Of a stretch of DNA of 64,000 nt, positions 13,606 through 40,716 are shown in pieces. The DNA comes from Caldilineaceae bacterium. Its GTDB lineage: Bacteria; Chloroflexota; Anaerolineae; Caldilineales; Caldilineaceae. The notes beneath the pieces were generated by a model. The model was not told the origin of the DNA, did no database searches, and was given only the letters and a program-made list of their open reading frames with translations. The DNA lies in assembly GCA_022827195.1 (NCBI GenBank), contig JAJDTL010000037.1, positions 1-64,000 on the forward strand. The letters run 5' to 3'. A program made the translations under genes and the position numbers. The first letter of the stretch is position 1. Every line of letters starts with the position of its first letter.

Positions 13606-15162
13606 TCAGTGTGGTCTCGTTTGCGGCGGCCCGGTGTCCACGGAAAAGGCCAGGGCGTCGAAGTTTCGGCGCACCAGGTCGAAGCGCAGGCCGGCACTCG
13701 CGGGATCGTTCCACAGGTTATTGAACTCGCCCGGATCCTCCTGCAGGTCGTAGAGCTCCCCTTGTTCGTGTCCGTGATAAACGACGACCTTGTAGCGCCG
13801 GTCGCGGTACATGGTAGCGAAGCTGCCTTCGTAGTCGTCGCGGCCGGGCGCGTCCGGGTTCAGCGCGCGGTAGTATTCGCAGCGGACGAATTCGCGATGT
13901 TGATGCGGGTCGGCCAGTCCCTGCAGGATCGGGAGCAGCGACCGTCCTTGCATGCCTTGCGGGAGTGGCAGGCCGGCCAGTTCAAGAATTGTGGGTGCAA
14001 TGTCGATCAGCTCGACCAATGCCTCGCTGACAAAGCCGGCTCCGGGCTCGGACTTTTCTGACTCCGGCGCAGGTGAGGCTTCGGTGCCGGCGGAAGGCTC
14101 GGCGTCGTCCGCGGAGTCGTTTTCTGCAGCTGTTGGGGACCCTTCGTCACCCGCGGCGGCATCGGGCGGGGTCTCGGCGGGAGTGGGGAAGTTGGCGGGC
14201 CAACTGATGATCAGGGGCACGCGCACCAGGCCCTCGTAGAATCGGCAGCCTTTCAAGAGGAGGCCATGGTCGCCCAGCATCTCGCCGTGGTCGCTGGTGA
14301 AGATGATTACCGTGTTTTCTCGCTGCCCGGTTTCTTCCAGTGCATCGAGCAGGCGACCGACATTCTCATCGATCAGATCGATCATGGCGTAGTAGGCGGC
14401 TATGACCTCGCCGGCCTTGAACTCTTCGGGGCGCCGGGCCGTATTCTGAAAGTCTCCGGGAATCGCCTTCTGGGTGGTCAGATCAGAATCGCGGAAGAGC
14501 GGCGGCGGCACATTGGCGGAATTGTAGCGGTCGAGGTATTCCTGCGGGGGATCGAAGGGCGCGTGGGGGTCGAAGACGTTTACGCTCATGAGCCAGGGGC
14601 CTTTGCGCCTCTTTTCGGAGATGAAGTCGATGGCACGATCCGTGCACCAGGTCGTCTGGTGCAGGTCGGACGGGATTGAGGCCGGGTCTTCGCGCAGGTC
14701 TCGCAAGGCATAGCCCTGGGCAGACAGCCAGTCGGCGTAGGCGTGGCCGGAGGGGTAGCGGTCCTGCGGATCGTGGCTCCAGTGAAAGACGCGGTAGCCG
14801 TCTTCGTGCGGCCGCGGTTCTTCGCGCCCGTGGGCGCCGGCAAGGTGAAACTTGCCACTGAGGCCGCAGTCGTAGCCTTTGTCGGCCAGCAGTTTTGTGA
14901 TCAACGGCGCGCCCTCGCCCCACTCTTCATTGCCGTTCATGCAGGCGCGTACATTGGCGGGGTAGCGACCGGTCAGGAAGCTGGCGCGGCTTGGCGTACA
15001 GATTGGGCTCTGACAGAATGCGTGGGTAAAGGCGACACCTTCGGCGGACAGACGATCCAAATTGGGTGTTCTGATGTGTGAATTGCCGAGGGCTTGCACG
15101 GTGTCGAAGCGCTGTTGATCGGTACAGAACCAGAGAATGTTGGGGCGGTTTTGGGCCATCAC
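13606..15162 (-). CDS. Type I (Cys) sulfatase
   Basis: Formylglycine-dependent arylsulfatase family, 518 residues, hydrolysing sulfate esters. Seen: NILWFCTDQQR (metal site; usual second Asp partly replaced), the modification motif CTPSR with the Cys that becomes formylglycine, LTGRYP, TSDHGEMLGDHG for metal binding, and a C-terminal YKVVVYHGHEQGELYDL strand. No signal peptide is evident. Odd: residues about 322-378 are a Pro/Ala/Glu/Asp/Ser-rich insert not expected in the family, lying between the core and the VELIDIAPTILELAG segment. A formylglycine-generating enzyme is not in the window. It follows the discoidin-like lipoprotein gene (ends at 15266) on the same strand. Confidence 0.93.
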   Translation of the reverse strand: MMAQNRPNILWFCTDQQRFDTVQALGNSHIRTPNLDRLSAEGVAFTHAFCQSPICTPSRASFLTGRYPANVRACMNGNEEWGEGAPLITKLLADKGYDCGLSGKFHLAGAHGREEPRPHEDGYRVFHWSHDPQDRYPSGHAYADWLSAQGYALRDLREDPASIPSDLHQTTWCTDRAIDFISEKRRKGPWLMSVNVFDPHAPFDPPQEYLDRYNSANVPPPLFRDSDLTTQKAIPGDFQNTARRPEEFKAGEVIAAYYAMIDLIDENVGRLLDALEETGQRENTVIIFTSDHGEMLGDHGLLLKGCRFYEGLVRVPLIISWPANFPTPAETPPDAAAGDEGSPTAAENDSADDAEPSAGTEASPAPESEKSEPGAGFVSEALVELIDIAPTILELAGLPLPQGMQGRSLLPILQGLADPHQHREFVRCEYYRALNPDAPGRDDYEGSFATMYRDRRYKVVVYHGHEQGELYDLQEDPGEFNNLWNDPASAGLRFDLVRRNFDALAFSVDTGPPQTRPH

Positions 15163-15265
15163 GGGCTCTCCGTCACACTTGCGATTGTTGGTTTTTCCCC
15201 GTTAGTTGTTGTCTTTCTGAAGTTCAGATACGCTGCCGGTCATCGCGGAATCTTTACAAAAGCCT

Positions 15266-15829
15266 TCACTCATTTTGCGAGAGCTTGCCGAAGACCCTGA
15301 TATCGCGCCATGCTACCCAACTGGGGCTGTCCCGGGTCAGAAACAGCGCCTGTTCGACATTCAGCGGTGGAAGTATCGGCAGTTCGAGAGTCTGCCCGTC
15401 TTCGGTGAAAAGATCTGCCATGCGGGAGTGAAGCGTCCAGACGCCAGATCCGTTTTCGAGCCACACTTCGTGGGTCGTTGGGCCGGCCGGCGACTGGGTG
15501 ACAACCAGTTCTATTTTGTCGACTGTGTATGTATTGTCAAGGAGCACTTGAATCCAATGCGACGGGTCGCCCCCGGCGCTCCACATCGTTTCCTCGTCGC
15601 CGTCGAACGCAAGATGGGCAAGCTCGCTGTGATTGGAGGCACGTGCGACGCCTAACGGGGCGACATTGGAACTCGATTGCGGCGGAGGCGCTGCCTCCAC
15701 CTGCATTTGGGCGAGACGCAGTGTGAGAATGGAATCTGCAGCTATCGAAAAAGGCGGTGGGGCCAGCGTGCAGGCCGCGACAGCGAACAGGCCGACAAGG
15801 CTGATTGCCAATAACTTAAGGTTTATCAT
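15266..15829 (-). CDS. Lipoprotein with discoidin (F5/8 type C)-like domain
   Basis: 187 residues with a clear lipoprotein signal (ISLVGLFAVAAC; lipid Cys at 20). The remainder resembles a carbohydrate-binding F5/8C jelly roll: LAFDGDEETMWSAGGDPSHWIQVLL, then a strand DKIELVVT and a closing WRDIRVFGKL. These domains bind sugars or lipids outside the cell. Located between the GT-C run and the sulfatase on the same strand, it could tether or sense the same surface polysaccharide. Domain call is by pattern. Confidence 0.7.
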   Translation of the reverse strand: MINLKLLAISLVGLFAVAACTLAPPPFSIAADSILTLRLAQMQVEAAPPPQSSSNVAPLGVARASNHSELAHLAFDGDEETMWSAGGDPSHWIQVLLDNTYTVDKIELVVTQSPAGPTTHEVWLENGSGVWTLHSRMADLFTEDGQTLELPILPPLNVEQALFLTRDSPSWVAWRDIRVFGKLSQNE

Positions 15830-16041: not shown

Positions 16042-17925
16042 TCACGACCGCAGGTGGTAGACGATGAAACGCGGGTATGGGGCGTCGTCAATGATGATCT
16101 CGCCGTCGGGGTAGAGTTCTTTGAGGCGGTCGATCTCTTTGGCGTATGCCCCGACGAGGAGATAGGTGACCGGCCCTTCGTGGACCTTTTCGAATTCAAA
16201 CGTACCGAATTCCCGCGAACGGTCCATCCCTTGACTGGCGGGGTGCAGAAAGCGGACGCTTTCGTAGTTGAAGCTCCACCTGCCTGAGTAAAAGTAGATC
16301 GTGCCCGGGTTCTGAAACGAGTGTGCCGCAGCCAGGGCGTCTACGTGATCGGGGACGAAGGCAAATTTTACGGTCGGACTTTGCGCCAACTCTCCAAAAT
16401 AGTATCTAACGTTCCAGACGCTGCTGACGGCCAGCGTTAAGGCTACGCCTGCCATTGCGATATTGCGGCCTTCTGTCCCAAATCTACGGTTGACAAGACG
16501 AACGACTTCGGCGGCGCCAATCGCGGCCAGAGCGGCAATGAACGGGACTGCCGCGATGCTGCGTCTCAAGGTCCCGGACTCTGGCAGGGCAAAGAGTTGT
16601 GCGAGCATGGCCAGGATAACTACCAGCGCAGCGAGCAGGTAGGGCGGGCTCCTCCATTTTCTGATGGACAGTGCAAGCCCAAGGTAAGCCAGCGCCGCGA
16701 TTCCCAGGTCAAGCGGGCCTGCGCCGCCCGTGCCGTCCACGCCATCCGACCTCAGCTGCCTGGCGAGGACGGTCAATGATTCCCATGCACGCGTGGCGAA
16801 GAAGGAGGCCCTTTGGGCGAAGTCTCCGGCCTGCGGGTACTCATGCGAGCGAAATACGGACGCCATGCTTGTTCGGTGCATGTAGACATCCCAGTTTTCG
16901 GACAGGAAAAGGAGAAAAGGGGTCGAAACGAGCAGCGCCCCAAATGCATAGAAAGCCAAGGTGACAAGAGTATTTGCAATCGTGTCCCGCTTGAGAAGAA
17001 GGTAGACCGCGAGAGTCCCGGCGACCGCGGCGAAGAAGGCGGGGAAAGCGAGGTATGTGTAGGGTACGAGACCCAAAGCGGCACCGGCGGCCAGCCAGTG
17101 CCAGCGACTCTGCCTGCGCATCGCCCAGAGCAGGGCAGCGCCGGCGACCGGGGCGACAAGAGAGAGTGACACAAGCTGATAGCCCATGCGGCTGAAGTGC
17201 AGGTGCCAGTAACTAACCGTCAGGACGGTGGCTCCAAGCAGGGCGACCCAGCGCCCGAAACCCAGTCGGAGGAGCAGATGGGTCGCGGGGACGGCGGCGA
17301 TTCCCAAGAGCGCCATTGAGAGGCGAACGGAGAAGATTGAGGCATCCAGAAGCAAGAAGGTGAGAGCAGTCAGGTAGATAGGTCCGGTCATATTCCCCAG
17401 CGCGCCGGGCGTGTAGACGCCTATCCAGCCTTGATCAAGGATGCGCAGGGCGTCGATTCCGTTCCAGGCTTCGTCGCCGTTGAATCCGTCAGGTATGTCG
17501 CCCAGGCGGTAGATCCGCAGAAAGGCGGCCAGCGCGGTGAGGAAAACGACTGCGAGCAACTCCCACCGGTTGCGCCGCGTCCATGCGCGCAGGAAGGCCC
17601 TGTTCCACTGCCACTGCGGAGGGGGTACATCCCAGAAAATGCCGAATGCACGGGACTTTCGGCGCGCTACTGATTTCGCGTGTGATTCAGGACCAACAGG
17701 GCCAGGGCGGGATGCTCTTGCTGGGCGGCTGACAGTCGATTGCGCGGATTCAGGCCGTGCCAAGTCGCTAAGGGGTGCGCCGCAGTCGTCGCAGAATTGA
17801 AAGGCGCCGGGATTGTTGGTGCTGCAGTTGGGGCAGTTGCGCCTGAGCGGAGTGCCACAGGACCCGCAGAAGTCGGCCGTTGGACGATTGCGGTACTCGC
17901 AGTTGAAGCAGAGGGTTAGCTGCAT
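16042..17925 (-). CDS. Zinc-ribbon / GT-C (GT39-like) membrane glycosyltransferase
   Basis: 627 residues. The N-terminus is a double zinc ribbon with four CxxC pairs (Cys6/9, 20/23, 31/34, 45/48). A basic linker follows, then about ten transmembrane helices (from about residue 140) and a C-terminal soluble domain ending YPRFIVYHLRS. The first extracytoplasmic loop reads GFNGDEAWNG, the Asp-Glu pair that is catalytic in PMT/ArnT-type enzymes. Such enzymes move a sugar from a polyprenyl-phosphate donor to an acceptor at the outer face of the membrane. Closely related to the gene just upstream (17990-19915), 64 bases apart: a tandem duplication. Acceptor unknown. Confidence 0.82.
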   Translation of the reverse strand: MQLTLCFNCEYRNRPTADFCGSCGTPLRRNCPNCSTNNPGAFQFCDDCGAPLSDLARPESAQSTVSRPARASRPGPVGPESHAKSVARRKSRAFGIFWDVPPPQWQWNRAFLRAWTRRNRWELLAVVFLTALAAFLRIYRLGDIPDGFNGDEAWNGIDALRILDQGWIGVYTPGALGNMTGPIYLTALTFLLLDASIFSVRLSMALLGIAAVPATHLLLRLGFGRWVALLGATVLTVSYWHLHFSRMGYQLVSLSLVAPVAGAALLWAMRRQSRWHWLAAGAALGLVPYTYLAFPAFFAAVAGTLAVYLLLKRDTIANTLVTLAFYAFGALLVSTPFLLFLSENWDVYMHRTSMASVFRSHEYPQAGDFAQRASFFATRAWESLTVLARQLRSDGVDGTGGAGPLDLGIAALAYLGLALSIRKWRSPPYLLAALVVILAMLAQLFALPESGTLRRSIAAVPFIAALAAIGAAEVVRLVNRRFGTEGRNIAMAGVALTLAVSSVWNVRYYFGELAQSPTVKFAFVPDHVDALAAAHSFQNPGTIYFYSGRWSFNYESVRFLHPASQGMDRSREFGTFEFEKVHEGPVTYLLVGAYAKEIDRLKELYPDGEIIIDDAPYPRFIVYHLRS

Positions 17926-17989: not shown

Positions 17990-19915
17990 TCAGGAGTTGA
18001 GGTGGTAAACGATGAAACGGAGGCGGGGGTCGCTGTCGACGATGGTGTCGCCGCCTGGATAAAGCTGCTCGAGCCGGTCGATTTCCCGGGCGTAGTGCCC
18101 TATCAGCACATAGGTTACGGGGCCGTCATCCATTTTGGTCAGATCAAAGGTACCAAATTCATCAGATCGGTCGGTTCCGGGACTGTCGGGGTAAAGGAAA
18201 CGAATAGATTCATAGTCGAAGGCCCAGCGACTTGAGTAGAAGTAGATGGTGCCCGGGTCGGCGAAAGTGTGGGCCGATTCCAGGGCCTCGACGTGATCCG
18301 AGGCGAAGGCCCAATCCAACTGACGGCTCTTGGCCAGTTCATCAAAGTAGTATCGCAGATTCCAGAACGAGCCGGCCATCAGCACAAGAATGAGCGCGCC
18401 AGCGACGGCAAGCCTACCGCTTTGGCCGAAGGCGCTGCGAATGACGTTGGCGACGCTGACGACACCGACGCCGGCCAGGCCGAAGACCCAAGGGATTGCT
18501 GTGATGCTGCGTCTCAGGGTGCCCGTGGAAGGGTCGGTGACTACCAGTACGGACAGGGCACCGAGTACTGCGAGCAGGGCCAGAAGGTAAGGAGGGCTGC
18601 GCCACCTTCTTACTGAGACGGCAAGGCCGACGTATGCGAGGACCGCGATTCCCGCATCCACTGCGCCTTTGCCGCCGGAACCGTCAGTGCCGTCAACCCT
18701 CGGGTTGCGCATGAAGAGCGTAAGGGAGTCCCATGTTCGCCGCGCGAGAAAGCTGACTTGCTCGGTGAGTGCCTCGCCCTGTGGAAACTCGTGCGAGCGG
18801 AAGACCCACACTTGACCCATGCGTCCCGTCTGTACGGTCGGCGAGGAGATCGTGGTGGAGATGACCGGGATCAGCGCGACGACCAGGCCGATAGAGAAGA
18901 GGGCAAGCGAAAGGAGAGTGGGCTGCAACTGGTCTCTTTGAAGAAAGAGGTAGACGGCCAGGACCGCGAACACGGCGACAAAGAAGCTGGGATAGGCGAA
19001 GTAGGTGTATGGCGCGAGGCCCAGTAGGCCTCCCGCAACCGGCCATGTCAGACGACTGCGGGAACGCATGGCTAAGATGAGGGCGAGCGCCGCCACTGTG
19101 CAGGCAAATGGCAGAGCGACTACGGGACAGGTCACTCTGCTCATGTGCAGGTGCCAGTGACTTACTGCCAGCGCGGTTGCGGCGAACGACGCGGCCACGC
19201 GACCGAAGCCGATCCTGAACAGCAGATAGGCCGCGGGCACGGTAGCGATGCCGAAGAGCGCCATAGAGAGGCGGACGGTAAAAATTGAAGCATCAAATAG
19301 CAGTATCAGGAGTGCGGTAACGTAGAAGGTGCCGGCCGCCTGTCCCAAGGCGCTTCCGCTATGGATGCCGATCCAACCTTCTTCAAGGATGCGCAATGCC
19401 TCCAGCCCGCTCCATGCTTCGTCACCGTGGAAGCCGGCAGGGTAGTCGGCCAGGCGGTAGATACGAAGGAGGGCTGCCATTGCAGTGAGCAGGACGACCG
19501 CCGACATCTCCCATCGGTGGCGGAAGGCCCAGTCTCGCATGAAAGGCATCGACCATTGCCACTCAACAGCAGGAGAGTGCCAGGTCACACCGGGCGATCG
19601 CAGGTAGGCTGAAATCCTTGGCAGGCGAGCCCTAAGCGGGCTGAAGACGGAGGCGGGGCGGACGCGCTCAGCCGAGGATGCGGAGAAGCGTGGGTCATTC
19701 GAAAGGGAGGGGGAGGCTGCGGGGAGGGCCGCACCGCAAGCATCGCAAAAGGTGAGACTTCGAGGATTGTCTGCGCCGCAGTTCGTGCATTGCGCAGCCA
19801 TGCGCAGGCCGCAGTGTCCACAGAAAGTGGCCCCGGCGCGATTCGGCTGTTCGCAGACGGCGCAGGGCTGCAACTCCTGAATTGCGCCGCCCGCAGCAAG
19901 GTCACCTGCAGGCAT
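17990..19915 (-). CDS. Zinc-ribbon / GT-C (GT39-like) membrane glycosyltransferase, paralogue
   Basis: 641 residues with the same architecture as its downstream neighbour: double zinc ribbon (Cys18/21, 32/35, 43/46, 57/60), linker, polytopic GT-C core and C-terminal domain ending LRFIVYHLNS. The catalytic loop reads GFHGDEAWSG. The helices after it (DASIFTVRLSMALFGIATVP) are almost identical in pattern to the paralogue. Upstream, 16 bases separate it from the Agl23-NHL gene, so it is in the same transcription unit. A cytoplasmic zinc ribbon on a GT-C enzyme is unusual and may mediate protein contacts. Confidence 0.82.
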   Translation of the reverse strand: MPAGDLAAGGAIQELQPCAVCEQPNRAGATFCGHCGLRMAAQCTNCGADNPRSLTFCDACGAALPAASPSLSNDPRFSASSAERVRPASVFSPLRARLPRISAYLRSPGVTWHSPAVEWQWSMPFMRDWAFRHRWEMSAVVLLTAMAALLRIYRLADYPAGFHGDEAWSGLEALRILEEGWIGIHSGSALGQAAGTFYVTALLILLFDASIFTVRLSMALFGIATVPAAYLLFRIGFGRVAASFAATALAVSHWHLHMSRVTCPVVALPFACTVAALALILAMRSRSRLTWPVAGGLLGLAPYTYFAYPSFFVAVFAVLAVYLFLQRDQLQPTLLSLALFSIGLVVALIPVISTTISSPTVQTGRMGQVWVFRSHEFPQGEALTEQVSFLARRTWDSLTLFMRNPRVDGTDGSGGKGAVDAGIAVLAYVGLAVSVRRWRSPPYLLALLAVLGALSVLVVTDPSTGTLRRSITAIPWVFGLAGVGVVSVANVIRSAFGQSGRLAVAGALILVLMAGSFWNLRYYFDELAKSRQLDWAFASDHVEALESAHTFADPGTIYFYSSRWAFDYESIRFLYPDSPGTDRSDEFGTFDLTKMDDGPVTYVLIGHYAREIDRLEQLYPGGDTIVDSDPRLRFIVYHLNS

Positions 19916-19931
19916 TTGCAGACTCTAATCC

Positions 19932-22900
19932 TTATCCACTTCCAAAGATGAGGATTCGATTGTTGTCGGCGTCGGCGACAAGGATCTCGCCGCTCAAGGG
20001 GTCGATAGCGATGCCATTGGGCTTGGCGAAATGGTTGAGTTCGCTACCGTACCTGCCGAAGCTGGCGCGTACGATACCATCGGCGGAGATCACGAATACC
20101 TGTGCGAACTGTGGATCGGTGGCGTAGACTGTGCCGTCGTTTGCTGCGGCCAAATAGGGCTTGTCCCAGACCTTGTCGCTGTCCCAAGTGGGCATTGGCC
20201 ACTCGGACAGCGCTTGCAGGTCGGAGGACAGGACCTGAATGCGGCTGTTCCAGGCATCGCTAACGAGGATCAGGCCGGTTGTTGGGTGAACGGCAACATC
20301 AACGGGTTCGTCGAAGTAGCCGAGCAGGACGCCACCGCCGCCGGCCTGCCGCACAAACTCCCCGTCGGGCGTAAACTCAAGGATGCGCTTGTTTCCTGTG
20401 TCGGCGACGAGAAGATTGCCGGACGGGTGGATTGCCAGGCCGCGCGGGCCGAAGAGGACAAAGGGATCGGCGTAATCGCCGCTGACCGTACCGAAAAAGC
20501 CCCACTTATTCAAGAAATTTCCGGAACTGTCGAATGCCTGGATGCGCCCGTTCCAGGTGTCGGAGACGAAAATTGTGCCGTCGGCTGCCACTGCAATCCC
20601 CCACGGTTCGCGGAACTGGCCGTCGCCGGTTTCCAGAGGGCCTGCGCCATCGGGATCGAGGCAGCCGGTGCCGACTTCGTCGGAGAGGAGGCAGGTGCTG
20701 CCGAACGCCAAGGCGAGCGAACCGTCCGGGTTGAGGACGACAACGCGGTTGTTGCCGGTATCCAGGATGTAGCGGCGTGCATCCGGGCCCACTGTGACTG
20801 CGCGGGGGGCAGTTAGCGGAACGCCTGCGAATGCGCCACTGTAGAGGCCGCTGGCGGTACGTTCGATTTCCGAGTAGTTAAAGATTGGGTCGCTGGCTGC
20901 CGTTGGGATGACGTCGAGATCCCAGACGAGATTCGCGATGTCTTTGCGGACGTACATGCGGAACTCTTCGACATGCGGCCATGCCGTGAGCGAGCGGTCG
21001 GGGTGGTTGCGGTAGAAGAAGATTTGCCAGAGCCGGTTGCGCTTTTCCGGGTCGGACAGGGCGTCCCAGATTTGCGAAAAGGACAGGCCGCGATGTTGCT
21101 GCCGGTCCCCGTCCCATAGGCCTTTGTAGCTCTCTTCGGGCCACCAGATCAGGCGATAGGAGCGGCTGACGTAGTCCCGCGCCACAAAAGGTTCCACCTT
21201 GGCGTAATTCTTGTCGCCGACGAGGATAATGGGCGACTCCATCGAATCGCCGGACGGATTGGCGCCGTAGAAGAGAGCGTTGGGGTAGAAGCGCATGTAC
21301 CAGGTCATCGGCCATGCTACGTCATCGTCATAGGCGACCTGAATCTCACGCTCTCCGACCGTTCGTTCACTGATTCTCTCGATTTCATCCAGCGCGACTT
21401 TCACATCGGGAGAGGCGTGGGCGTAGACCAGATACTCGGTCGCCATGTCATAGTTGAGGTAGGTAAGCAGATAGGAGAAACGAATTGTGAGGAGAAACAG
21501 TAGCGCGGCCGCCACCACGGCGGTCAGACGCAGGATCTGCCGCCAGCCATAGCGTACGAATGCCACGACGACCAATGCGATCACTGCTACGCTCGCGACC
21601 AGGACAGGGATGAAGCGGGCGGTCTGTGCCAGAGCATCCAGCTCGCGTCCGCCCTCGGGAAAGGAGCTGAACAACGTTGCGACAATGAAAAGAAGTGCGG
21701 GAAGCAGCGCGAAAACCCACCAGCCGTAGGTTGCTCGCAACTCTTCCCAGTTGATACGCCGCACCAAACGGGCGCACCACCACGCGCCGATCAGTGCCAT
21801 CGGCTGTGCCAGGTGGGTCATCAGCCAAGGCATCTTTTCGCCGGCGTAGGAGTATGCCAGCCAGGCCGTAACCATCCACCAAGCGAGAAAGGCAATGACG
21901 TACGGCCGAACCAAAACGTTTGGCTGGTCGGCTCCGCTCGCGTATGCGGTTGAGGGGGAGCCCGGCTCTTCCACTGGGGAAGATTCCTTATCTACCTGAA
22001 CTTCCTCCTCGTCTGATTTCGCCCTGCGCCAGTTGCGCACCGCAGTCCGCCATGCGAGCAGCGAAAGGGCGCCCAGACTAAGAAAGAGGGGAAGGATTTC
22101 ATAGAGCAGCGCCTGAAGCAGGTAGTAGTACCAGGGCTGGCTACCGCGCTGCACTTCCTGCTGTGCAAGCCAGTAGCCGAGGCTGCCGACGACGCCGGTT
22201 GCAAGACCATTTACGGCGTTGGTAAAGAAGGTCGTGAAAAGCACTATCTCGATGGCCCAAAAGAGACCCATGAGGGCGGCCCAGTTGCCGAAGGTGAGGG
22301 ATTGTTCCACCTCATCTGCAGCAGCGGCCCCGTTACGCTTGTTGTTGTTCTTCAGGACAACGAACCAGAACATCGCGATCATCAGGCTGACCGCAGTCAT
22401 CAGCAGCACGAAGAGGGCCGATTTGGCCAAGTCCTCGGTGGTTGCGTAGGCGAGTGCATCCCACCCCAGGAGCAGGTGACCAAACGGAGCGGTGAATGGC
22501 AGTACGAGGGTGAAGAAAAGAACTGCGAGATCGGCATAGGGGCTGAGACGGACCGGTTCACGGGCGCGAAAACGGCGCCAGAGCGCGGCTGCGACCAGGA
22601 AGGCGCCGAAAATCGCCCCTGACATGAACTGGTTCTCTTTGGTGGCGAATCCGAGCGCCATTGCGGCAACGGTCAAATAGAGCCACTTCATCCTGCGATC
22701 TTCGACAAAGCGGAAAATGCCGTACACCCAGATCATTGCGATGAAGACGATGTAGATGTCGTTGCGGATGTAGCGGCTGTGAAAGAGCAAACTGGGGCTG
22801 ACGAGCAGCATCATGCCGGCGAACAGCGCGCCCAGACGACCGAGCCAACGGCGGTAGAACCAGGCCATGCCAATTGCGCCGATTCCGGCCAGGGCGGGCA

Positions 22901-31600: not shown

Positions 31601-33553
31601 ATTTACCAGCCCGCTCTGCTCGTTTTCCGGCGCGCTGCCCAGCCCCAAAGCGTTCAGCAGCGGCGATAATGGGGGGTCTTCTCCGCGATGCCAAGGGATT
31701 GCGCCTTCCCACGAGGCGTAGAGGAGCGCGTCATACTCGGCTTCGCTTAGCTCGGCCTGCTTGGCGAAAATCGACACACGCGGATGATCATAGAGGCTCC
31801 AGCTCTCGTCGGCCTCGTGGTCGGGAAAAGTAAATCCAAACAGTTGCGGGGGCGAAGTAAAGTCGGCGGCATGGACGAAACCCAGGCGCTCGCCGAACAT
31901 CAGATCATAGTAGAGGATTGTCATCGGGTAGCGCTGCGGCAGCTCGTCGACGCTCTCGTAAATGCGCTTGGAACTGTATATGACGTAGTCGGCTTCCTGC
32001 AGCTTCTGCCGCAGAATGAGGTACTTTTCTTCTGTGTCTTCTTCGTAGGGCGACCAGTCGATGTGACGCAGCCCGTGGCTGCCCATGTCCATACCTGGCT
32101 CTCCAGGTATGCTCTTTGGCAAAGGGTCGTCCCATGATTCCCAGAGGATAACCGAACCGGGCGAAGCGTTGGCGTAAACCCAGCGGCTGGCCGTAACCCA
32201 GGTGTGCTCGCGCGCGTAGACGCCGTTGACCAAGGAGAGGGACCAGAACAGAGCACCTCCGACCGAGACCAGCCCGAGCAGCACGGCGGGCAGACGGACC
32301 GGCAGGCGCAGCCGCCGGCTTTCGCCGCGTTTCCAGATCCATACGATCATGCCTGCGGCAAAGAGGAGGACGAAGGGCAGGATGGGGCTCATATAGCGGT
32401 TGAATTTGGCCAGAAAGGCGCCGGTCAGCCCGAAGTAAGGGACGACCCAGGCCCAGACCAAGAGTTCCCCAAGCCTTGGCCGCAGCAGGAGCGACTTAGC
32501 CAGCGCCCAGAGGCTCCCTGCGAGCGCGATGAAACCGAGAGGCAGGCCCATGCCCCAAACCACCTGCTGCCGGATAAAGTAGAGATATGGCGTTGTGGTG
32601 CGGTATTGGCGCGTGAAGGGGAAGTCGACGATTCCGCGTACCATGCGGCCCTGTTCCACGAGTGTGGCCTGGATAAAGCTGTGCCAGTCGAGAATAGCGT
32701 AGGGGCTGGTAAGGAAGAAAGAGATAAAGGCGACAAGTAGGGCGACCGGAGCGCCGACGAGCATTTGGCCGGCACTTCTGCGGTCGGAAGCAAACTGCCC
32801 GCTTGCGTAGGAAACTTGAGTTCTTTTGGACTGCCAGCCGGCGGCCAGGGCTGCCACAATTGGCACGCCAAGGATTGGCAAGGCACTAAACTTAGCGGAA
32901 ACTGCCAGCCCTGCGCCGACGCCTGCCCAGACTACCCCGCGCCAGGAACGATCCTGGACCATTACAATGCCGCCGTAGACGGACAGGACGACGAAGGTCG
33001 TACTTGACGGGTCCATGGCGAAGAAGTGACTCAGTTGGACGGCCTGAGCAGTGAAGGCGTAGAGCGTTGCTGCCAGCAGGCCGGCGGCGGCGCCGTAGAT
33101 TCTGCGTCCAACCAGGAAAAGGAGAAGGACGGTCAACGTGTCGAACAGGGCCATCAGGAGGCGGCCGGCGACAGCCACGCCGCTGCAGGCGTGGTTGGCC
33201 CGCTCCATAAGATTGAGGACGCGGTCGGATAGCGGCAGGTGCGAGGCCGGCTCTGCCAGGCCGCTCAGCAGCTCACCGGTCAAGATCCCGAGGTAGAGGG
33301 GAAAGTGGCCGTAAGTGAAGGAACGGCGGCGGTCATTTTGCCGGTCCCACAGAGGGTTGAGGGGGCTGCGTTGCGGATCGAGGAACTCGTCAGATGAGGT
33401 AGGCCATTGAACCGAGGGCGCGTAGAAACAGGTGGTGCTGCGTTCATCGGGATGCGCGTTGAGCCCACCGTCGAAGTTGACGTTCCAGGTGCGTAAAGTC
33501 AACCCGGCCAGCGCCACGACGCCGAGAGTCAGACATATGAGGAATGAGCGCAT
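28598..33553 (-). CDS. Giant GT39-like + DUF2298 fusion membrane protein
   Basis: 1651 residues, one of the largest genes here. The first half is a GT-C core: an N-terminal helix, an outer loop with NAHPDERSTT (the Asp-Glu pair) and about ten helices to residue 420, then a soluble domain to about 690. The second half is a DUF2298 domain: KFMEFAFLNGILRSPTFPPV followed by DPHFAGGYINYYYYGIYLVG, SFTYADLHPHMIGIPF and AYRMNTLFKYYSQVWVLW. It therefore joins two families that occur as separate genes downstream. It is the first GT gene of the run after the DUF348/3D protein (88 bases apart). Probable sugar transfer on a lipid carrier at the outer membrane face; product unknown. Confidence 0.85.
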   Translation of the reverse strand: MRSFLICLTLGVVALAGLTLRTWNVNFDGGLNAHPDERSTTCFYAPSVQWPTSSDEFLDPQRSPLNPLWDRQNDRRRSFTYGHFPLYLGILTGELLSGLAEPASHLPLSDRVLNLMERANHACSGVAVAGRLLMALFDTLTVLLLFLVGRRIYGAAAGLLAATLYAFTAQAVQLSHFFAMDPSSTTFVVLSVYGGIVMVQDRSWRGVVWAGVGAGLAVSAKFSALPILGVPIVAALAAGWQSKRTQVSYASGQFASDRRSAGQMLVGAPVALLVAFISFFLTSPYAILDWHSFIQATLVEQGRMVRGIVDFPFTRQYRTTTPYLYFIRQQVVWGMGLPLGFIALAGSLWALAKSLLLRPRLGELLVWAWVVPYFGLTGAFLAKFNRYMSPILPFVLLFAAGMIVWIWKRGESRRLRLPVRLPAVLLGLVSVGGALFWSLSLVNGVYAREHTWVTASRWVYANASPGSVILWESWDDPLPKSIPGEPGMDMGSHGLRHIDWSPYEEDTEEKYLILRQKLQEADYVIYSSKRIYESVDELPQRYPMTILYYDLMFGERLGFVHAADFTSPPQLFGFTFPDHEADESWSLYDHPRVSIFAKQAELSEAEYDALLYASWEGAIPWHRGEDPPLSPLLNALGLGSAPENEQSGLVNMVFSLLQGQEARSGEPQPPAGREEEGRPSLLLETPLDQLPLVDNYRWNRVASQNTLFAVSWWWLVVSLLGWTAWPLSFLLFRGLRDRGYLLAKTLGWLLCGWLLWLFASLELAHNTVRNAWLAVALVTLVNALILARTWRSVLTFVRRMWGVLLVGEALFAAAFVFFVFVRRANPDLWQPWFGGEKFMEFAFLNGILRSPTFPPVDPHFAGGYINYYYYGIYLVGYLVKLTGIYAEVAFNLAIPTLFALTVLNAFAVAYSVSGRQRLGERLSRAGILPFQPQEPDTRPAPTTAPVQSDPPVESLEAKVRRLETPVKDGRPSLERRNDARGLPDQIQFDSETTVYTGPARMSEFPQTETSEEAQPRSQMMPDDPPPDPDPANARPIPWHVGIASALLAPLFVAILGNLAGFGQLLHSLSRASQSHFNFGIPAFERAIHAASGLWRTLTTGAALPNYDFWAPSRVIPETINEFPYWSFTYADLHPHMIGIPFSLFFVALALTLLNSFKLDWRRHWPYLTLLLGGLSFTLGVLTAVNLWELPTYFGLGVLVLAVALHRKRGRLLLGRVIILGAAQLAGAYLLFLPFFRSYTNVAAGGIGLVRAPDELGHWAQIWGFFAFVLFSWLLVERSEWRRLRFLNLHRLLVSRCTLVYFTGTVLSPILFLASALLLAFSDQIILAICLPALGISLPLLLRRGRSSDTGTVSVALLTSVGLAVLAGTQLIYLKDFLQGGNAYRMNTLFKYYSQVWVLWGVAAAIALPSIFARLTAARKGRSHASTGFELPARGGPVWKTNGRLSPLGRAWSLAFAFLLAASLAFPLWGTPSRLAQRFPGWRPPVGTLDGMAFMENGTYLWPDSDNAIELSYDWEAIRWILENVRGNAVVAESAQIDYYRAGGTRVASLTGLSGLLGMHAGEQRFAKDVGQRHGKLSEFWSTNELGRIEEIIRELNIDLIYVGQLERHQHPAAPARLEQLNAIGFLQTVFRNQKVTIYAVPSQWPTEPSGQ

Positions 33554-33640: not shown

Positions 33641-35284
33641 TCATGGCTCAATTGGCCAGTCTGGCACGACCCAAACGATCTGATGTTCCGGCGGAGGCGG
33701 CCACAGAAGGTAGACGTCGACCCAGCTGCTCCACAGCTCAAGGTTGTCGTCGTCGTAGCCGAGGTCGATACGCCGGATCTTGATGTTGCCGCCGGTATCG
33801 AGCGCGTCGCCGATGCCGTAGCCGGGCACATACACCTTGGTTCGCAAAGGAATGTATCTCGGGTCGACGGCGACAACGCCCTTGCGCATCGGGTCGCCTG
33901 TTCGAGTGATTCCGAACCAGGGTACGCTAGTAGGGACACCGGCGGTCGAAGCGCTATAGCTGGTGGCCCTCATGCGAATGGAGCGCCAGTAGACGATTTC
34001 CTTTCCATCATCGGTGATCAGAGTCTGGGGGATGATATTCTGGCCGTAGACGATTACCCGGTCGCGCGGCTCCTGGGCCACCCAGACGTCTTCGAGCACG
34101 CGTTCAACTTCCTCGCCGTCAACGAAGCGGGTGCGATAGCGCCGGCGGGTGATGCCGTAAGCCCCTGGTTCGACTCTGCGGGTGTCGATGAGGAGGTCAC
34201 GATCCCCGATCCAGACTGTTTCGAAAGGAGCGATCTCCTCTTCAAGGTCGATTTCCTCAATGATCCGCACAATTGAGATCTGCATATCCGGAAAAATGAT
34301 CGCATCCAGCGAAGGCGAAACTTCGTCCAGGCCGGCCAAACCGATACCGATTTCGGCGAGCGCTTCGCCTACGGTCCGGCTCAGGGTGCGGGTCTTGTAA
34401 AGGCGGCCATCGGCCAGCAGACTGATGGGTGTGCTGCGTTGAATCAACACTCTCATTCCGGTACTAACGGGCGTACCAAGGCTGGGCTGGACGTTATCTC
34501 CGAGGTAGATTGTGATCTCGGCGTCCAGCAGAGCTTCTCCGACCGTCTCGGACATCGTATGAATTGTATATGGAATTGAACCCTCATCGATGACGAGCAG
34601 CGCGGAACGATCGATTTCTATACGAAGCGGATCATTGCCTATCTGGCCCCAGAGGCTGCCGATGCCAAAAAGGGAGGGATTCAACTTGGGCGGGTCCCTG
34701 GGAATCTCCTGGTCCCAGCTCGTCAGCTCACCATTGATTGTCAAGCGGTCGTACGAGTTGAATGGGATGCCGGCGTCCCGCAGGAGCTCGACGGGCGTCG
34801 AGGCCCAACTTGAGATCAAGGTCTCGCGGCCGTCGGCAGAGATGTGAAAGGGGCGCGGGCGTTCAACGCTGATTCGCATCCCGTTCACGATTCTCGTATC
34901 GAGGCTGTGGGAAATCCGCACCTCTTCGAATTGCCTGGTCGAGCCCTCGCCTGCGCCAGTACCTGGTCGGAGTAGGCCAAGGGTCGCGACGGTCCCGACT
35001 TCTGTTTGCGCGGACTGTGGCTCGCCCAATTGGTCCAGCGAAAGACCGAGGTCGGTCAGGAGGGAGCCGACAGCCCGACGATGCGTATTGATTGTAAGTG
35101 AGTGGCCGTCAACCACAATCTCTACCGGGGTTGCGGTGAAGTTCCAGAGTGCCCAAAGGCCAACGATAGCGGCCACCACAAGTGATAACCGTACCATCAG
35201 CCGAAACTGCCGTCCCGGCCATCGCCTGACTTGGGAATGGGCGACAGTCACATCAGGCCTTACCCGTCGAGTGACAGTAGCCAT
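33641..35284 (-). CDS. DUF348/G5/3D-domain cell-wall protein
   Basis: 547 residues. One N-terminal transmembrane helix (about 30-50) is followed by four DUF348-like repeats (HSLTINTHRRAVGSLLTDLG; further copies near residues 165, 225 and 270) and a G5-like segment around residue 365-420 (RRRYRTRFVDGEEVERVLED). A C-terminal 3D domain has DPRYIPLRTKVYV, DALDTGGNI and RIDLGYD, whose three Asp residues form the active site of MltA/YabE/Rpf-like peptidoglycan enzymes. It probably cleaves or remodels peptidoglycan at the cell surface. ATG start in an AT-rich leader. It heads the GT-C gene run and is likely linked to envelope assembly. Confidence 0.85.
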   Translation of the reverse strand: MATVTRRVRPDVTVAHSQVRRWPGRQFRLMVRLSLVVAAIVGLWALWNFTATPVEIVVDGHSLTINTHRRAVGSLLTDLGLSLDQLGEPQSAQTEVGTVATLGLLRPGTGAGEGSTRQFEEVRISHSLDTRIVNGMRISVERPRPFHISADGRETLISSWASTPVELLRDAGIPFNSYDRLTINGELTSWDQEIPRDPPKLNPSLFGIGSLWGQIGNDPLRIEIDRSALLVIDEGSIPYTIHTMSETVGEALLDAEITIYLGDNVQPSLGTPVSTGMRVLIQRSTPISLLADGRLYKTRTLSRTVGEALAEIGIGLAGLDEVSPSLDAIIFPDMQISIVRIIEEIDLEEEIAPFETVWIGDRDLLIDTRRVEPGAYGITRRRYRTRFVDGEEVERVLEDVWVAQEPRDRVIVYGQNIIPQTLITDDGKEIVYWRSIRMRATSYSASTAGVPTSVPWFGITRTGDPMRKGVVAVDPRYIPLRTKVYVPGYGIGDALDTGGNIKIRRIDLGYDDDNLELWSSWVDVYLLWPPPPEHQIVWVVPDWPIEP

Positions 35285-35663: not shown

Positions 35664-37145
35664 CTATGCGAGCCAGTTCATCTCGTTTCGGAGGGGCCAG
35701 CGGTAGCGTTCTTCCGGCCCGGTGTGACGGGCCCAGGCTTGGAGAATCGGTTCGTCGGCCCTCTTCTGTTCCATCTTTCGTCGAACGCAGTCCGGGTCCC
35801 AGTCGCGCAGGGTTTCGGCATGCAGGTCCTGCATGATAGACCGGCACCGGGGGTCGTCCGAGCGATCCACGCGTTCGTCCGGGTCCTCTTTCAGATTGAA
35901 TAGCTGGGGAGGCTGGCGGTGATAGTAGATGTATTTCCAGTCTTCGCGCCGGATCATACGTTGAAATGCGCCTTCGGGCGGGCCGAACCTATCTGTACAG
36001 TATTCGGAAAAGGCGATGTCCTCCCAAATTGGGGGCTGAGGACGACCGTCGACATGGGCGAAGAAGCTGCGGCCGGCCGCGTTGGGAAGCGCCGGAGCGC
36101 CGAGGGCGTCGAGCATCGTTGCTGCCACGTCGACGGCGCTCACGACACGCCGGCAACGCTGCCCTTGCGGGATGCGGCCGGGCCAGCTCATGATTAGGGG
36201 GACGCGCACCGACTCTTCGTAGAAGACGTGCTTCCAGAAGAGGCCATGCTCGCCCTGCATATCACCATGATCGGAGGTGTATATGATCAAGGTATTGTGG
36301 TCGAGCCGGTTGGCCCTGAGCGCGTCCAGAATCTGGCCGACCAGCGCGTCGGTGCGGTAGACAAGGCCGGCATAAGCAGCCCGCGCCCGCAGCGTCTCGG
36401 CTTCGTCTAATTTTTCGATTCCCGTAGCGGTGCGCCACCAGCTCATGAATGGATGATCTTTTCCGGTAGGGGGAGGCGGCTTGCGGGGGGGCGCGATTGC
36501 GCCGGCGTAGCGCTCGAAGTCTTCGGCGCGAGCAACATAGGGAGGATGCGGCAGCATCAGCCCGACAGAAATGCTGAAGGGTTTGTCAAGCAGGCCGGCC
36601 CGTTTCTGCACGCCGAGCTGGTTGAGGCGTGCGATGGTGACGGCGGTGACTTCCTCGTCGTGAACCTGGTAGCCGCTCTGACCCGGGCCTGAGCGGGTAA
36701 GGCTCAATCGTTCCGGGCCGGCAGTGCCTTCGAGGACGCCCCGATCGGGGCCGGGGTTGCCAGGGTAGTTGGCGCTGTGGTCGCCGACAAAGCGCGCGGC
36801 GTAGCCATGCAGCTGGTCGGGCCCCAGCGCATGCATGCGGCCAACGAGCTCCGGCCTATAGCCTGCCGCGCCCATGGCGTGTGCAATGGTCGGAATTGTC
36901 GAATCAAGCGCGTGCTCGTTGGTCCAGACTTCATTTTGGAAGGGGTGGCGGCCGCTGAGCATCGACATGCGTGAGGGGACGCAGATTGGCGAGCAGCAGT
37001 AGGCGTTGTCGAAGATCACGCCGCGGGCAGACAGCTGGTCGAGATTGGGTGTCTCCACGATGTCGTTTCCGTAGCAGCCGGTTACGTGCGGGCTGTGCTG
37101 GTCGGAATGAATATAGAGAAGATTCGGCCGGGGCGAATCGCTCAT
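35664..37145 (-). CDS. Type I (Cys) sulfatase
   Basis: 493 residues of the formylglycine sulfatase family. Metal/Asp start NLLYIHSDQHSPHVTGCYGN, modification motif CVPSR followed by MSMLSGRHP, the metal site YTSDHGDMQGEHGLFWKH and the C-terminal WKYIYYHRQPPQLFNLKEDP segment. No signal peptide is obvious. A paralogue of the sulfatase at 13606-15162 but divergent and without its acidic insert. It is upstream of the DUF348/3D gene with a roughly 380-base gap. Substrate unknown; sulfated polysaccharide is a reasonable guess. Confidence 0.93.
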   Translation of the reverse strand: MSDSPRPNLLYIHSDQHSPHVTGCYGNDIVETPNLDQLSARGVIFDNAYCCSPICVPSRMSMLSGRHPFQNEVWTNEHALDSTIPTIAHAMGAAGYRPELVGRMHALGPDQLHGYAARFVGDHSANYPGNPGPDRGVLEGTAGPERLSLTRSGPGQSGYQVHDEEVTAVTIARLNQLGVQKRAGLLDKPFSISVGLMLPHPPYVARAEDFERYAGAIAPPRKPPPPTGKDHPFMSWWRTATGIEKLDEAETLRARAAYAGLVYRTDALVGQILDALRANRLDHNTLIIYTSDHGDMQGEHGLFWKHVFYEESVRVPLIMSWPGRIPQGQRCRRVVSAVDVAATMLDALGAPALPNAAGRSFFAHVDGRPQPPIWEDIAFSEYCTDRFGPPEGAFQRMIRREDWKYIYYHRQPPQLFNLKEDPDERVDRSDDPRCRSIMQDLHAETLRDWDPDCVRRKMEQKRADEPILQAWARHTGPEERYRWPLRNEMNWLA

Positions 37146-37562
37146 AGCGGACTCCGTGCAGGCTTAACAGAAAGGTGGTCGCGGCGGATTGAACTGTGAG
37201 TCGGCGAGACTTGCCGCTAGCCCGCAGCCACGATCCATCCTAAACGCGGAGGCCCCAGTTTTGCAACAGGCCCGGTTGGGAGGGGGGCGCTTGCTTCCAA
37301 TGGCGGGCGACATTTTCCAACTGGCAGAAAGGCCAAAAGGTTTGGCAGCAGTGTCTTGATGCAGGATAATAGATTTCCTAATGACAGGTAGTAACGGGGG
37401 CAAAACGTGGAGGCCAGAACGGGCTTGGCGGCCAAAAGGACACTGCTGACGGCCAGGCGGGGACGCCCTGCGCGGTGATAGGCATACGCGAACGAATCTG
37501 CGCACCGGCGCGGATTTGGTCTTCCGGACTGAATGTCCAAATATGGCGTTGAAGCAGAGCGA
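37146..37562. other. Divergent intergenic region
   Basis: Between the sulfatase and the zinc-ribbon/NHL gene. It contains a rightward promoter candidate at 37342-37370; no gene is seen. Confidence 0.5.
37342..37370 (+). promoter_or_regulatory. Candidate promoter for zinc-ribbon/NHL gene
   Basis: TTGGCA (-35), 17-base spacer, GATAAT (-10). It lies about 190 bases before the start of the next gene. Confidence 0.45.
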
Positions 37563-38939
37563 ATGACTGGAATTCTGAGGTCAGGCGGCGACTTTCCAGG
37601 AGAAGAACCGGATATCGGGTGCGCGGGCTGCGGTTACGCGAATCGGGCCGACGCCAACTTCTGCGCCTTTTGTGGGCGGCCGATGCCAACTAAGCAACAT
37701 TGTGACAGTTGCGAGGCAGAGATGCTGCCAGGTCAGCTCGCGTGCTGGGCATGCGGCGCGCTGACGGCCGCCGCGCCGGAGGGCAAAGAGGAGTGGCTGG
37801 CGGAAGACGGAGGGCAGACTCCGGCCGAGTCTGGGGAGGTTGGGAGCAGGGATAACTGGAGGGAACGGCTGCAGGACGTCGCCGCCACCAGGATGCGTTC
37901 ACTGATTTTTTTGAGCGGCAGCCCCATCCTTTTCGCCGCCATCCTGGTTGCCGCTGTCGCGAAGGACAGCCTTGGCATTGAGGGGGTTTTTTCCGGCAGG
38001 GGAGGGGAGACCTCCGCCATCTCCGCCGTAGAGGGGCATCCTGGAGGCCAGGCAGGCGCGGATGACGGGGCGATCTTCGGCTTGCCGATCGGCAGTACGA
38101 CGCTGCCTGACGGCGAAGAGAGGACGACAGTCTTTGAGCTCGTCAATGACAGCTTCAGCCGCCCTCGCGGAGTCGCCTCAGCCAACGGCAGGATTTACGT
38201 TGTGGACCCGGAGCAGGTCTCCCTAATCGTGCTGAATTCGGACGGGCTGGAGGTGGGCCGGTTCAATGGGGCAGACCGCGACTTCGTCGAGCCTGTTGAC
38301 GTCGCCGTGGACGCGGCCGGGAACGTCTACGTATTGGACGCGGGCGGAGGCGGACACATCAGCATCCACGACGCGAACGGTGCATTCGTCCACGCGGTCC
38401 CGATCGCAGAGAACAGGCTTGATCGCAGCAGGGGGATTGACGTGGACTACCAAGGTCGCATTTGGGTCGCGCTAACTCCGGCTCAGGATGTGGCGGCGTT
38501 CGATACAGGGGGGCAGGAGCTAATCCGATTCGGGACCGACCTAGAGGGCAGGGATCTTCAGCCGGTTGATGTCGTTTACCAAGCCGATGATGCAGTCTTT
38601 GTTGCCACTGTAGGTCTGACAACTGTGATTCGTTTTGAGCTTTCGGGCGAGCCGGTCAGCCTGTGGTCGTTGGTCAGCGCAAACAGTGTGGACGGTCCGC
38701 ATCTGGCCGCGGACGAGGACGGAGTCATATACGTCACGCAGCCCGAACAGGGCGGGCTGCTACGCATCGACGGGGACGGGATGGACTCGTTGCAGGCTTG
38801 GGTGCTACCGGCGGGGCCGTCGATTCGCAAGCTGGTCGGCATTGCTGCGGGGCCGGACGGTGGGCTCATGGTGACCGATAGTGAGAACGGCAGCGTCTAT
38901 CGGATTCCGACTGGGCAGCACGATCAGGCCGACGGGTAG
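37563..38939 (+). CDS. Zinc-ribbon / transmembrane / NHL-propeller protein
   Basis: 458 residues from the ATG at 37563 (an upstream in-frame ATG at 37533 has no ribosome-binding site). Double zinc ribbon with Cys20/23, 34/37, 47/50 and 61/64, a linker, one transmembrane helix (about 107-125, LFAAILVAAVA) and then an outer domain of NHL-type blades (RPRGVASANGRIYVVDPEQ, VAVDAAGNVYVLDAGG, IAAGPDGGLMVTDSENGS). It combines the zinc ribbon of the two GT39-like proteins with the propeller of the Agl23-like protein, without any transferase core. Possibly an adaptor for the same machinery. Function inferred only from modules and location. Confidence 0.75.
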   Translation: MTGILRSGGDFPGEEPDIGCAGCGYANRADANFCAFCGRPMPTKQHCDSCEAEMLPGQLACWACGALTAAAPEGKEEWLAEDGGQTPAESGEVGSRDNWRERLQDVAATRMRSLIFLSGSPILFAAILVAAVAKDSLGIEGVFSGRGGETSAISAVEGHPGGQAGADDGAIFGLPIGSTTLPDGEERTTVFELVNDSFSRPRGVASANGRIYVVDPEQVSLIVLNSDGLEVGRFNGADRDFVEPVDVAVDAAGNVYVLDAGGGGHISIHDANGAFVHAVPIAENRLDRSRGIDVDYQGRIWVALTPAQDVAAFDTGGQELIRFGTDLEGRDLQPVDVVYQADDAVFVATVGLTTVIRFELSGEPVSLWSLVSANSVDGPHLAADEDGVIYVTQPEQGGLLRIDGDGMDSLQAWVLPAGPSIRKLVGIAAGPDGGLMVTDSENGSVYRIPTGQHDQADG

Positions 38940-38964
38940 GTTAGAAAGGGGAAGAGGCCGGAAG

Positions 38965-40716
38965 GTGAGCAAACCGAGAGGGCTTGTGACAGAAGAGGCA
39001 GGCAACGGAGAAGGCAGGGGGCGCGCATTCTTCAATGAACCAGACACAGCTGGGCTTATGCACCGCGCGTTCACTCGCTCGCTCGGCTTTGACAAGGCCG
39101 ATATGGACCGCCCGCTGATCGGCATTCTCAACACGTACAGCGAGATGAACAACTGCCACGCCCACTTCCCCGAACTGGTGGAGGCGGTCAAAAGGGGCGT
39201 CTGGCAGGCGGGAGGATTTCCGCTGGAGTTTCCCACGATCAGTCTGGGGGAGATTTATCTGACGCCGACGTCGATGCTGTGGCGGAATCTTGCGGCGATG
39301 GACGCCGAGGAGATGATACGGGGCAACCCGATGGACGGCCTCGTGGCGCTGTGCGGCTGCGACAAGACGACGCCGGCCGCGCTGATGGGAGTAGCCAGCG
39401 CCGACGTGCCGGCGATTCTGGTATCCGGGGGCCCAATGCTCAACGGCCATTGGCGCGGCCAGACGCTGGGGGCGTGCACCGACTGCCGCCGACTGACGAC
39501 GGAGTACCGTGCCGGCAACCTCAACGATGAAGAATACCTGGAAGTCGAAGAGAATCTCGTGCGCAGCCGGGGCCACTGCATGGTAATGGGCACGGCCTCG
39601 ACGATGAATTCGCTTACGGAGGCGATGGGAATCTCGCTGCCCGGCAACGGGGCGATACCGGCGGCGGACTCGCGGCGGATCCTGCTAGCCGAAAACGCTG
39701 GCCGCCGAATCGTCGGGCTGGCCGCCGAAGGGGTGCGGCCGTCGCAGATATTGACGCGCAAGGCGCTAGAAAACGCGGTTACGCTGCTGTGCGCATTGGG
39801 CGGCAGCACGAACGCCGTCGTACATCTTCCTGCGCTGGCGGGACGGCTGGGGATCGATCTGCCGATCGATCTCTTCGACCAGATAAGCCGCCGTACGCCG
39901 TTGCTGGCCAATATTCGGCCCAGTGGGGCGTACCAGATGGAGGACCTGTTCTACGCCGGCGGCATCCCGGCGATATTGCGAGAGCTGCTCCCTCTGCTCC
40001 ACAGCGACGCGAAGACGGTCACAGGCAAAACGCTGGCGGAAAGCGTGGCGGGTTGCGAGATCGTCGATGCAGACGTTATCCGTTCGTATGACAGCCCGCT
40101 CAAAACGGAGGGAGGGTTGGCGATCCTACGAGGGAACTTGGCGCCGTCGGGTGCGGTGATCAAGCATGCGGCGGCATCGTCCGAACTCATGCATCACAGG
40201 GGGCGTGCGCTGGTCTTCAGCGACATCGCCGATCTGCAAGCAAGGATCGACGACCCCTCGCTCGACGTGGAGCCGGGAGACGTCATGGTGCTGCAGAATG
40301 CGGGTCCGGTCGGCGGGCCGGGAATGCCTGAAGTCGGCAACCTGCCGATTCCAAGGAAACTGCTGAGCCGGGGCGTGCGTGACATGGTGCGCATCTCCGA
40401 CGCGCGGATGAGCGGCACGGCTTTCGGGACGATCGTACTTCACGTTGCGCCCGAGGCTGCGGTCGGCGGGCCGCTTGCCCTGGTCCGGAGCGGCGACGAG
40501 ATCGAACTGGATGTGACGGGGAGAGGGCTCAATCTGATTGTCAGCGAGGAGGAACTCAGCCGGCGACGCGCGGCGTGGCGTCCGCCAGAGCCTGGTTACA
40601 AGCGGGGTTACGGCAAGCTGTTCCTGGATCACGTGCTGCAGGCACCACAGGGCCTGGACTTTGATTTCCTGTTGGGTCGGGATCCTGTGGAGACAATGGC
40701 CCAACCAAAATTTTGA
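38965..40716 (+). CDS. IlvD/Edd-family dehydratase (sugar-acid type)
   Basis: 583 residues. [Fe-S]-dependent dehydratase. Cluster ligands: Cys in [13 protein letters not shown], Cys in [10 protein letters not shown] and Cys in [17 protein letters not shown]. The CDKTTPA form (not CDKNMPG) and SGGPMLNG fit the pentonate (arabonate/xylonate) dehydratase branch rather than dihydroxy-acid dehydratase of valine synthesis, so no ilvD symbol is given. Start: the GTG at 38965 follows AGAGGCCGGAAG and gives an N-terminus of normal length. It lies 25 bases after the NHL gene. It suits a role in breaking down sugar acids, in line with the Gfo/Idh and DHDPS-family genes. Confidence 0.85.

Follow-up and report, generated by a model that had tools for sequence, protein, structure and literature searches.

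What does a member of the Chloroflexota do with six large polytopic membrane proteins encoded head to tail with a NUDIX hydrolase? The question is raised by a 64,000-nucleotide stretch of a Caldilineaceae bacterium (GenBank assembly GCA_022827195.1, contig JAJDTL010000037.1, positions 1 to 64,000), analysed whole and called the window here, in which these genes occupy positions 16042-33553 of the minus strand. The envelopes of Chloroflexota are poorly understood: parts of one study describe them as devoid of classical outer-membrane genes, with a layered polysaccharide/protein structure proposed and some tomograms looking diderm-like (PMC13319060). An initial annotation of the locus had seen one machine for making and remodelling a surface glycan, perhaps sulfated. 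The conserved module of several proteins of the glycosyltransferase-C (GT-C) type stood up to analysis, but the sulfation did not. The locus is probably an extracytoplasmic glycan-assembly module, building or decorating a cell-surface glycan and fed by polyprenyl-phosphate sugars.

Gene content of the locus

Gene junctions were read from the table of open reading frames (ORFs), and domains were called with Pfam and NCBIfam profiles. Among named sequences, the window's proteins have their best hits in metagenome-assembled Caldilineaceae genomes. The run begins with YYYlong (28598..33553, 1651 residues), a GT39-like unit (PMT_2, with an HPDE motif) fused to a DUF2298 unit (TIGR03662). It is followed by the NUDIX hydrolase (28029..28625), whose Nudix box proved intact on inspection, and by YYYs (25325..28036, 903 residues), a DUF2298 membrane protein with a predicted GT-C fold. 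Next come two Agl23 paralogues: Agl23s (23283..25259, 658 residues), which has lost the catalytic-type Asp (WEA here), and Agl23-NHL (19932..23279, 1115 residues), which keeps its H-DE and HGP motifs and ends in an NHL propeller. The tandem paralogues DZRGT_A (17990..19915) and DZRGT_B (16042..17925), each a double zinc ribbon joined to a GT39-like unit and 50% identical to one another by BLASTP, complete the run. The NUDIX gene overlaps YYYlong by 28 nt and YYYs by 8 nt, and the gaps that follow, in order from YYYs to DZRGT_B, are 65, 3, 16 and 64 nt. The G+C content is ordinary over the locus, and AT skew is positive along the gene run, as would be expected for membrane-protein genes on the minus strand.

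These ORFs and domains are as the initial annotation had described them, with two amendments. YYYlong fuses two GT-C-like units, so that the six proteins hold seven such units. By sequence profile, the mutually homologous GT-C proteins are the PMT_2/Agl23 proteins only; the DUF2298 units join them by predicted fold only.

A core conserved in order

Gene order was scored only in loci whose contig allowed the test, among 20 loci from the genus and family, 20 hand-picked loci from the class and phylum, and 79 loci from a named collection. The four-gene core consists of YYYlong (the GT39-DUF2298 fusion), YYYs (DUF2298), Agl23s (the short Agl23) and Agl23-NHL. It is complete and in order in 13/13 testable genus/family loci and in 16 of the 36 testable named-collection loci. 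YYYlong lies upstream of YYYs in 17/17 genus/family, 15/15 class/phylum and 39/50 named-collection loci; the corresponding counts are 19/19, 12/19 and 52/66 for Agl23s downstream of YYYs, and 16/16, 9/18 and 31/52 for Agl23(-NHL) after Agl23s. The NUDIX hydrolase is present in 16/17, 0/15 and 8/50 loci, respectively.

Linkage was also measured in a phylum sample of 84 genomes with listed positions for both families; in 40 of them a listed DUF2298 match on the same strand is no more than 8 kb away from the best Agl23 match. An order unique to this genome, or genes scattered in its relatives, had been named at the outset as the result that would undo the idea of one locus. Within the genus and family neither is seen; across the phylum the core recurs, but it becomes less regular far out and its linkage weaker. 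Pairwise distances between core proteins correlate at 0.90-0.97 (34 loci, some genomes represented twice), and because the comparison had no unlinked control gene, this says only that the trees agree. Clustering of the core genes is strong without being obligatory, and the module has apparently been inherited as a unit in Chloroflexota.

The marker families themselves are widespread. DUF2298 matches occur in 41/41 near genomes and in 104 of 151 sampled Chloroflexota genomes (99 with E below 1e-20), and Agl23 (TIGR03663) reaches E <= 1e-20 in 98 of the 151. At the 1e-20 level both families are found in 96 genomes and neither in 50, three of which (G021, G031, G040) have a weak DUF2298 match; DUF2298 stands alone in three (G108, G132, G148) and Agl23 in two (G025, G053), each of the latter with a weak DUF2298 match. 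Among 14 control genomes only Haloferax volcanii and Methanosarcina acetivorans have both families over the cut-off; when the threshold is relaxed to E <= 0.001, Agl23 has further matches, below the cut-off, in Bacillus subtilis and Corynebacterium glutamicum. Present in roughly two thirds of the sampled phylum and in 2/14 controls, the markers would offer a genetic handle on these envelopes, one testable in Haloferax. Two DUF2298 contigs (L075 and L076) carry the titles of Deltaproteobacteria and Acidobacteria metagenome-assembled genomes, through either transfer or mis-binning.

Predicted fold and conserved residues of DUF2298

The two DUF2298 units of the locus score 463.6 and 482.4 bits against TIGR03662 (cut-off 300.25) and 390.2 and 372.4 bits against PF10060 (cut-off 27.8). 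An AlphaFold2 model of YYYs, with a mean predicted local distance difference test score (pLDDT) of 86.6, has a GT-C fold that VIA-align places closest to STT3: the STT3/PglB/AglB group is the best match across both the membrane and C-terminal domains, and AftA, AftB, AftD and EmbC are also among the matches. Five residues, E140, D161, D397, H399 and H401, are invariant in 104/104 YYYs sequences, and the Glu at the E140 position is also present in 66/66 YYYlong sequences. In the model a transmembrane (TM) helix at 109-132 is followed by a helix at 141-152, with E140 just before this first outer-loop helix. Because of this pattern E140 is a better candidate for the JM1 apex than D161 of the DPW motif, which was considered as catalytic base and set aside; the invariant Glu would then occupy the position of the GT-C catalytic Asp. 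Residues from about 236 to 300 of YYYs form a long, acidic, low-confidence insert, probably a disordered loop.

The resemblance to STT3 does not extend to its signature motif. WWDYG is found in 0/104 YYYs and 0/66 YYYlong sequences and in 50/54 STT3 controls, and PF02516 is not among the Pfam matches of the DUF2298 protein. Canonical STT3 (E <= 1e-15) occurs in one of the 151 Chloroflexota genomes, which has no DUF2298 match, and no STT3 was found in the source genome. A speculative and rather unlikely extension is that DUF2298 represents an unrecognised class of STT3-like transferases with a Glu base. Such enzymes would fill the STT3 niche in Chloroflexota and some archaea, moving whole polyprenyl-linked glycans onto surface acceptors and working with a catalytic/non-catalytic pair of Agl23 proteins.

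The Agl23 pair and the GT39 units

Agl23-NHL scores 261.6 bits against TIGR03663, well over the cut-off of 126.25. Agl23s reaches only 37.2 bits, which makes it a relative rather than a member of the family, and hhalign relates the two proteins at 100%. The family is presumably defined by invariant DE, HGP and two Arg, a set present in Agl23-NHL and not in Agl23s. The Asp is lost in 67 of 73 Agl23s sequences. Agl23s is thus probably a catalytically degraded paralogue serving as a non-catalytic partner, and probably forms a heterodimer with Agl23-NHL.

In the GT39 units, Asp and Glu of the YYYlong HPDE motif are kept in 66/66 sequences; in the DZRGT-type set Asp is present in 37/40 and Glu in only 20/40, and both DZRGT_A and DZRGT_B of the window have both. 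YYYlong (46.8 bits) and DZRGT_A (35.6 bits) exceed the PMT_2 cut-off, and DZRGT_B falls below it (22.1 against 26.1) in the Pfam scan of the locus and above it (26.4) in the genome-wide PMT_2 search. That search returned 16 matches, scattered over the genome, four of them at this locus. Elsewhere in the same genome (G000), at least five GT39-like frames of 750-803 residues are clustered on contig 48 (about 47-63 kb).

Exchange of zinc-ribbon, PA14 and NHL modules

The swapping of zinc-ribbon and NHL modules, noticed in the initial annotation, is real. In 7/8 genus genomes with further downstream flank, DZRGT_A is followed by a large protein matching, over its C-terminal part, a zinc ribbon - TM - NHL protein that in the window is encoded at 37533..38939 on the plus strand. 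Read whole in two genomes, the large protein has 1439 and 1447 residues in the order zinc ribbon - GT39 - PA14 - NHL, and its propeller shares 56% identity with the propeller of the window protein (38070-38912). Proteins of the types GT39-PA14 and GT39-PA14-NHL, for which no zinc ribbon was reported, occur in other relatives.

Five further genomes of the genus (G152, G154, G157, G158, G166) do not have the large protein at the locus. In all of these except G154, which has neither, DZRGT and/or the zinc-ribbon-NHL protein precede ilvD or the point where the stretch ends. Neither the window genome nor that of its nearest relative, G162, has the large enzyme; both have DZRGT_B. A move of the large enzyme to another place in this genome was considered and rejected: the PMT_2 ORF on contig 54 (1536 residues) shows no PA14, NHL or zinc ribbon, and a direct search of the genome for the large enzyme gave only the propeller, together with glycosyltransferase matches whose identity is at most 32%.

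The zinc-ribbon-NHL protein lies downstream on the operon strand in 11/13 genus genomes with flank read, being absent from G154 and moved in G162. In the window and in G162 the series zinc-ribbon-NHL - ilvD - tyrS - fabG (37533-43195 in the window) is found at the opposite, upstream flank and is transcribed divergently; in the seven genus genomes of L133-L139 it is downstream on the operon strand, as far as read. The arrangement here and in G162 looks like a rearrangement whose boundary falls at the glycan locus. The initial annotation extended the locus to position 40716, which is the stop of ilvD and lies outside the finding.

Lys/Arg counts before and after the first TM helix are 3-0 and 5-0, and 4-2 for the single-TM zinc-ribbon-NHL protein. 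This bias would place the zinc ribbons in the cytoplasm, and the NHL propeller of the zinc-ribbon-NHL protein would then lie outside.

A model of glycan assembly and its alternatives

If the locus assembles glycans, donor synthesis would be encoded elsewhere in the genome. Two GtrA/DPMS-TM proteins are encoded there, and such proteins handle polyprenyl-phosphate sugars in known pathways. Flipping data for Haloarcula Agl23 lead to the proposal that lipid-linked sugars are presented outside the membrane and used by the DE-bearing units. The catalytic GT-C units would be the N-terminal half of YYYlong, Agl23-NHL, DZRGT_A and DZRGT_B, with Asp-Glu on the first outer loop. Agl23s, the degraded partner of Agl23-NHL, would transfer or channel donors, and the two DUF2298 units may be further transferases or subunits that handle or flip donors. 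Outward propellers (along with PA14 in relatives and discoidin) would hold the acceptor glycan, and the zinc ribbons would face the cytoplasm.

Several observations weigh against this model. No donor synthase, polymerase or transporter is among the proteins annotated at the locus, and the Lys/Arg count of Agl23-NHL, 1-1, is uninformative on topology. Beyond the family, linkage is often lacking (44 of the 84 genomes, 7 with the genes far apart on one contig and 37 with them on different contigs, some assemblies being fragmented), and the co-occurrence of DUF2298 and Agl23 (Fisher p about 1e-33) is uncorrected for shared ancestry. The fold matches of whole DUF2298 chains have large root-mean-square deviations of 5-9 A. 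Sequence searches with DUF2298 found no GT-C relative, and a PDB profile search at E<=10 returned one unrelated chain. Profile-profile comparison reaches at most 67% with the GT39/Agl23 sets; with STT3, hhalign gives at most 59% (29 columns), and 58% over 129 columns. These comparisons are too weak for DUF2298 to be called GT-C from sequence alone, and that assignment was rejected.

A possible but doubtful alternative is that the DUF2298 and Agl23 core is mainly a flippase complex for lipid-linked sugars, whose output the fused and neighbouring GT39 units use. Agl23 from Haloarcula is reported to flip M5GN2-PP-Dol in liposomes and to suppress the deletion of rft1 in yeast (PMC11182771). The two families' matches lie about 0.7 kb apart, as a linked unit, in several genomes (e.g. 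G057, G033, G117), and both Agl23s and DUF2298 lack the catalytic-type Asp. Against it, catalytic-type residues are kept in Agl23-NHL, GT-C folds usually belong to transferases, and DUF2298 has its five invariant residues.

It is less likely that the acceptor is protein rather than polysaccharide and that the locus O-glycosylates surface filaments and wall proteins. PMT-type domains are present by Pfam, and the source genome is without STT3. Part of a structural report assigns densities at two Thr of the archaellin of Litorilinea aerophila, also of the Chloroflexota, to likely O-glycans (PMC12488501), and an Agl23-NHL homologue is named from Litorilinea sp. (P0215). The carbohydrate-binding-type modules that adjoin the GT-C units, PA14 and discoidin, suggest instead that the acceptors are glycans.

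Sulfatases and other neighbouring genes

All the flanking genes of the initial annotation were recovered by Pfam. At the head of the run, 87 nt upstream of YYYlong, a wall protein with four DUF348 domains, G5 and 3D and one N-terminal TM helix is encoded at 33641..35284 (minus strand); it is upstream in 14 of 20 genus/family loci (L014-L033), several of the others being incomplete. Beyond it lies the Cys-type sulfatase SulfB (35664..37145, minus strand). On the other side are a discoidin (F5/8C) lipoprotein (15266..15829, minus strand), with a lipobox VAAC recognised by eye, and a second Cys-type sulfatase, SulfA (13606..15162, minus strand). The sulfatase motifs of the pair are CTPSR and CVPSR.

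SulfB is the same-strand upstream neighbour in 9/10 genus genomes checked (the exception is G154) but did not appear in the family-level loci, for which only short flanks were read; it is a genus-conserved neighbour and a doubtful part of the module. SulfA and the discoidin lipoprotein adjoin the locus only here and in G162 among the relatives read, and SulfA is probably outside the module. The reading in which the locus makes a sulfated surface glycan and the two sulfatases remodel it has a single favourable point, the conserved position of SulfB, and is very improbable. Both enzymes start directly with the catalytic domain, and inspection by eye shows no signal peptide on either; SulfA is lineage-specific; 33 sulfatases of the genome exceed the Pfam cut-off; and no sulfotransferase was found among the proteins scanned. 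Sponge-associated Caldilineae are reported to be enriched in arylsulfatases, which part of one study takes to act on polysaccharides of the sponge matrix (PMC6306507).

Beside SulfA, window positions 9990-13545 encode a MocA-type oxidoreductase, a zinc alcohol dehydrogenase and a DHDPS-family protein, which look like a sugar-catabolism set and keep the same order in the nearest relative (L140). Beyond SulfB, another sulfatase (118-172 bits to SulfA) is present in relatives (L142-L145, L147, L148 and L150). Large discoidin-containing proteins accompany it in L142-L145 and L148, and the region may serve polysaccharide breakdown.

Comparison with known systems

The initial annotation knew of no described system of this make-up, and in this it was partly right. 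The DUF2298 and Agl23 families are already in NCBIfam, as TIGR03662 (Chlor_Arch_YYY) and TIGR03663 (Agl23); YYYs, YYYlong and Agl23-NHL exceed their curated cut-offs, and the families co-occur, as the NCBIfam descriptions also say. A literature search, thin on subscription journals, found no paper on the function of the cluster, none on the NCBIfam entries TIGR03662 and TIGR03663, and none tying GT39 glycosyltransferases to the Chloroflexi S-layer or NHL repeats to dolichyl-phosphate-mannose in Chloroflexi. The consulted part of a published gene-neighbourhood table places DUF2298 beside PMT2/PA14 genes and does not address its function.

Agl22/Agl23 of Haloarcula hispanica share with the locus the handling of lipid-linked sugars, and Agl23-NHL exceeds the cut-off of the NCBIfam model that bears the Agl23 name. 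They are set apart by description, in that the part of the report consulted mentions no NHL propeller, Asp-less partner or GT39-DUF2298 fusion (PMC11182771). STT3/PglB/AglB is the best fold match of DUF2298, from which the latter differs by the absence of WWDYG and, it would seem, by Glu in place of Asp on the first outer loop. In mycobacteria, EmbA-C and AftA-D are neighbouring GT-C enzymes that use polyprenyl-phosphate sugars and have carbohydrate-binding domains. DUF2298 matches AftA, AftB, AftD and EmbC in fold; no sequence relation is shown, and propellers and PA14 here stand against the Emb/Aft modules there. Beyond the TIGR03662/TIGR03663 pair, what is new here is the predicted GT-C fold of DUF2298, the Asp-less Agl23 paralogue, the swaps of zinc-ribbon and NHL modules and the wider operon. 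Should DUF2298 prove to be a GT-C enzyme, a mechanism would be gained for a large family of 'unknown function'.

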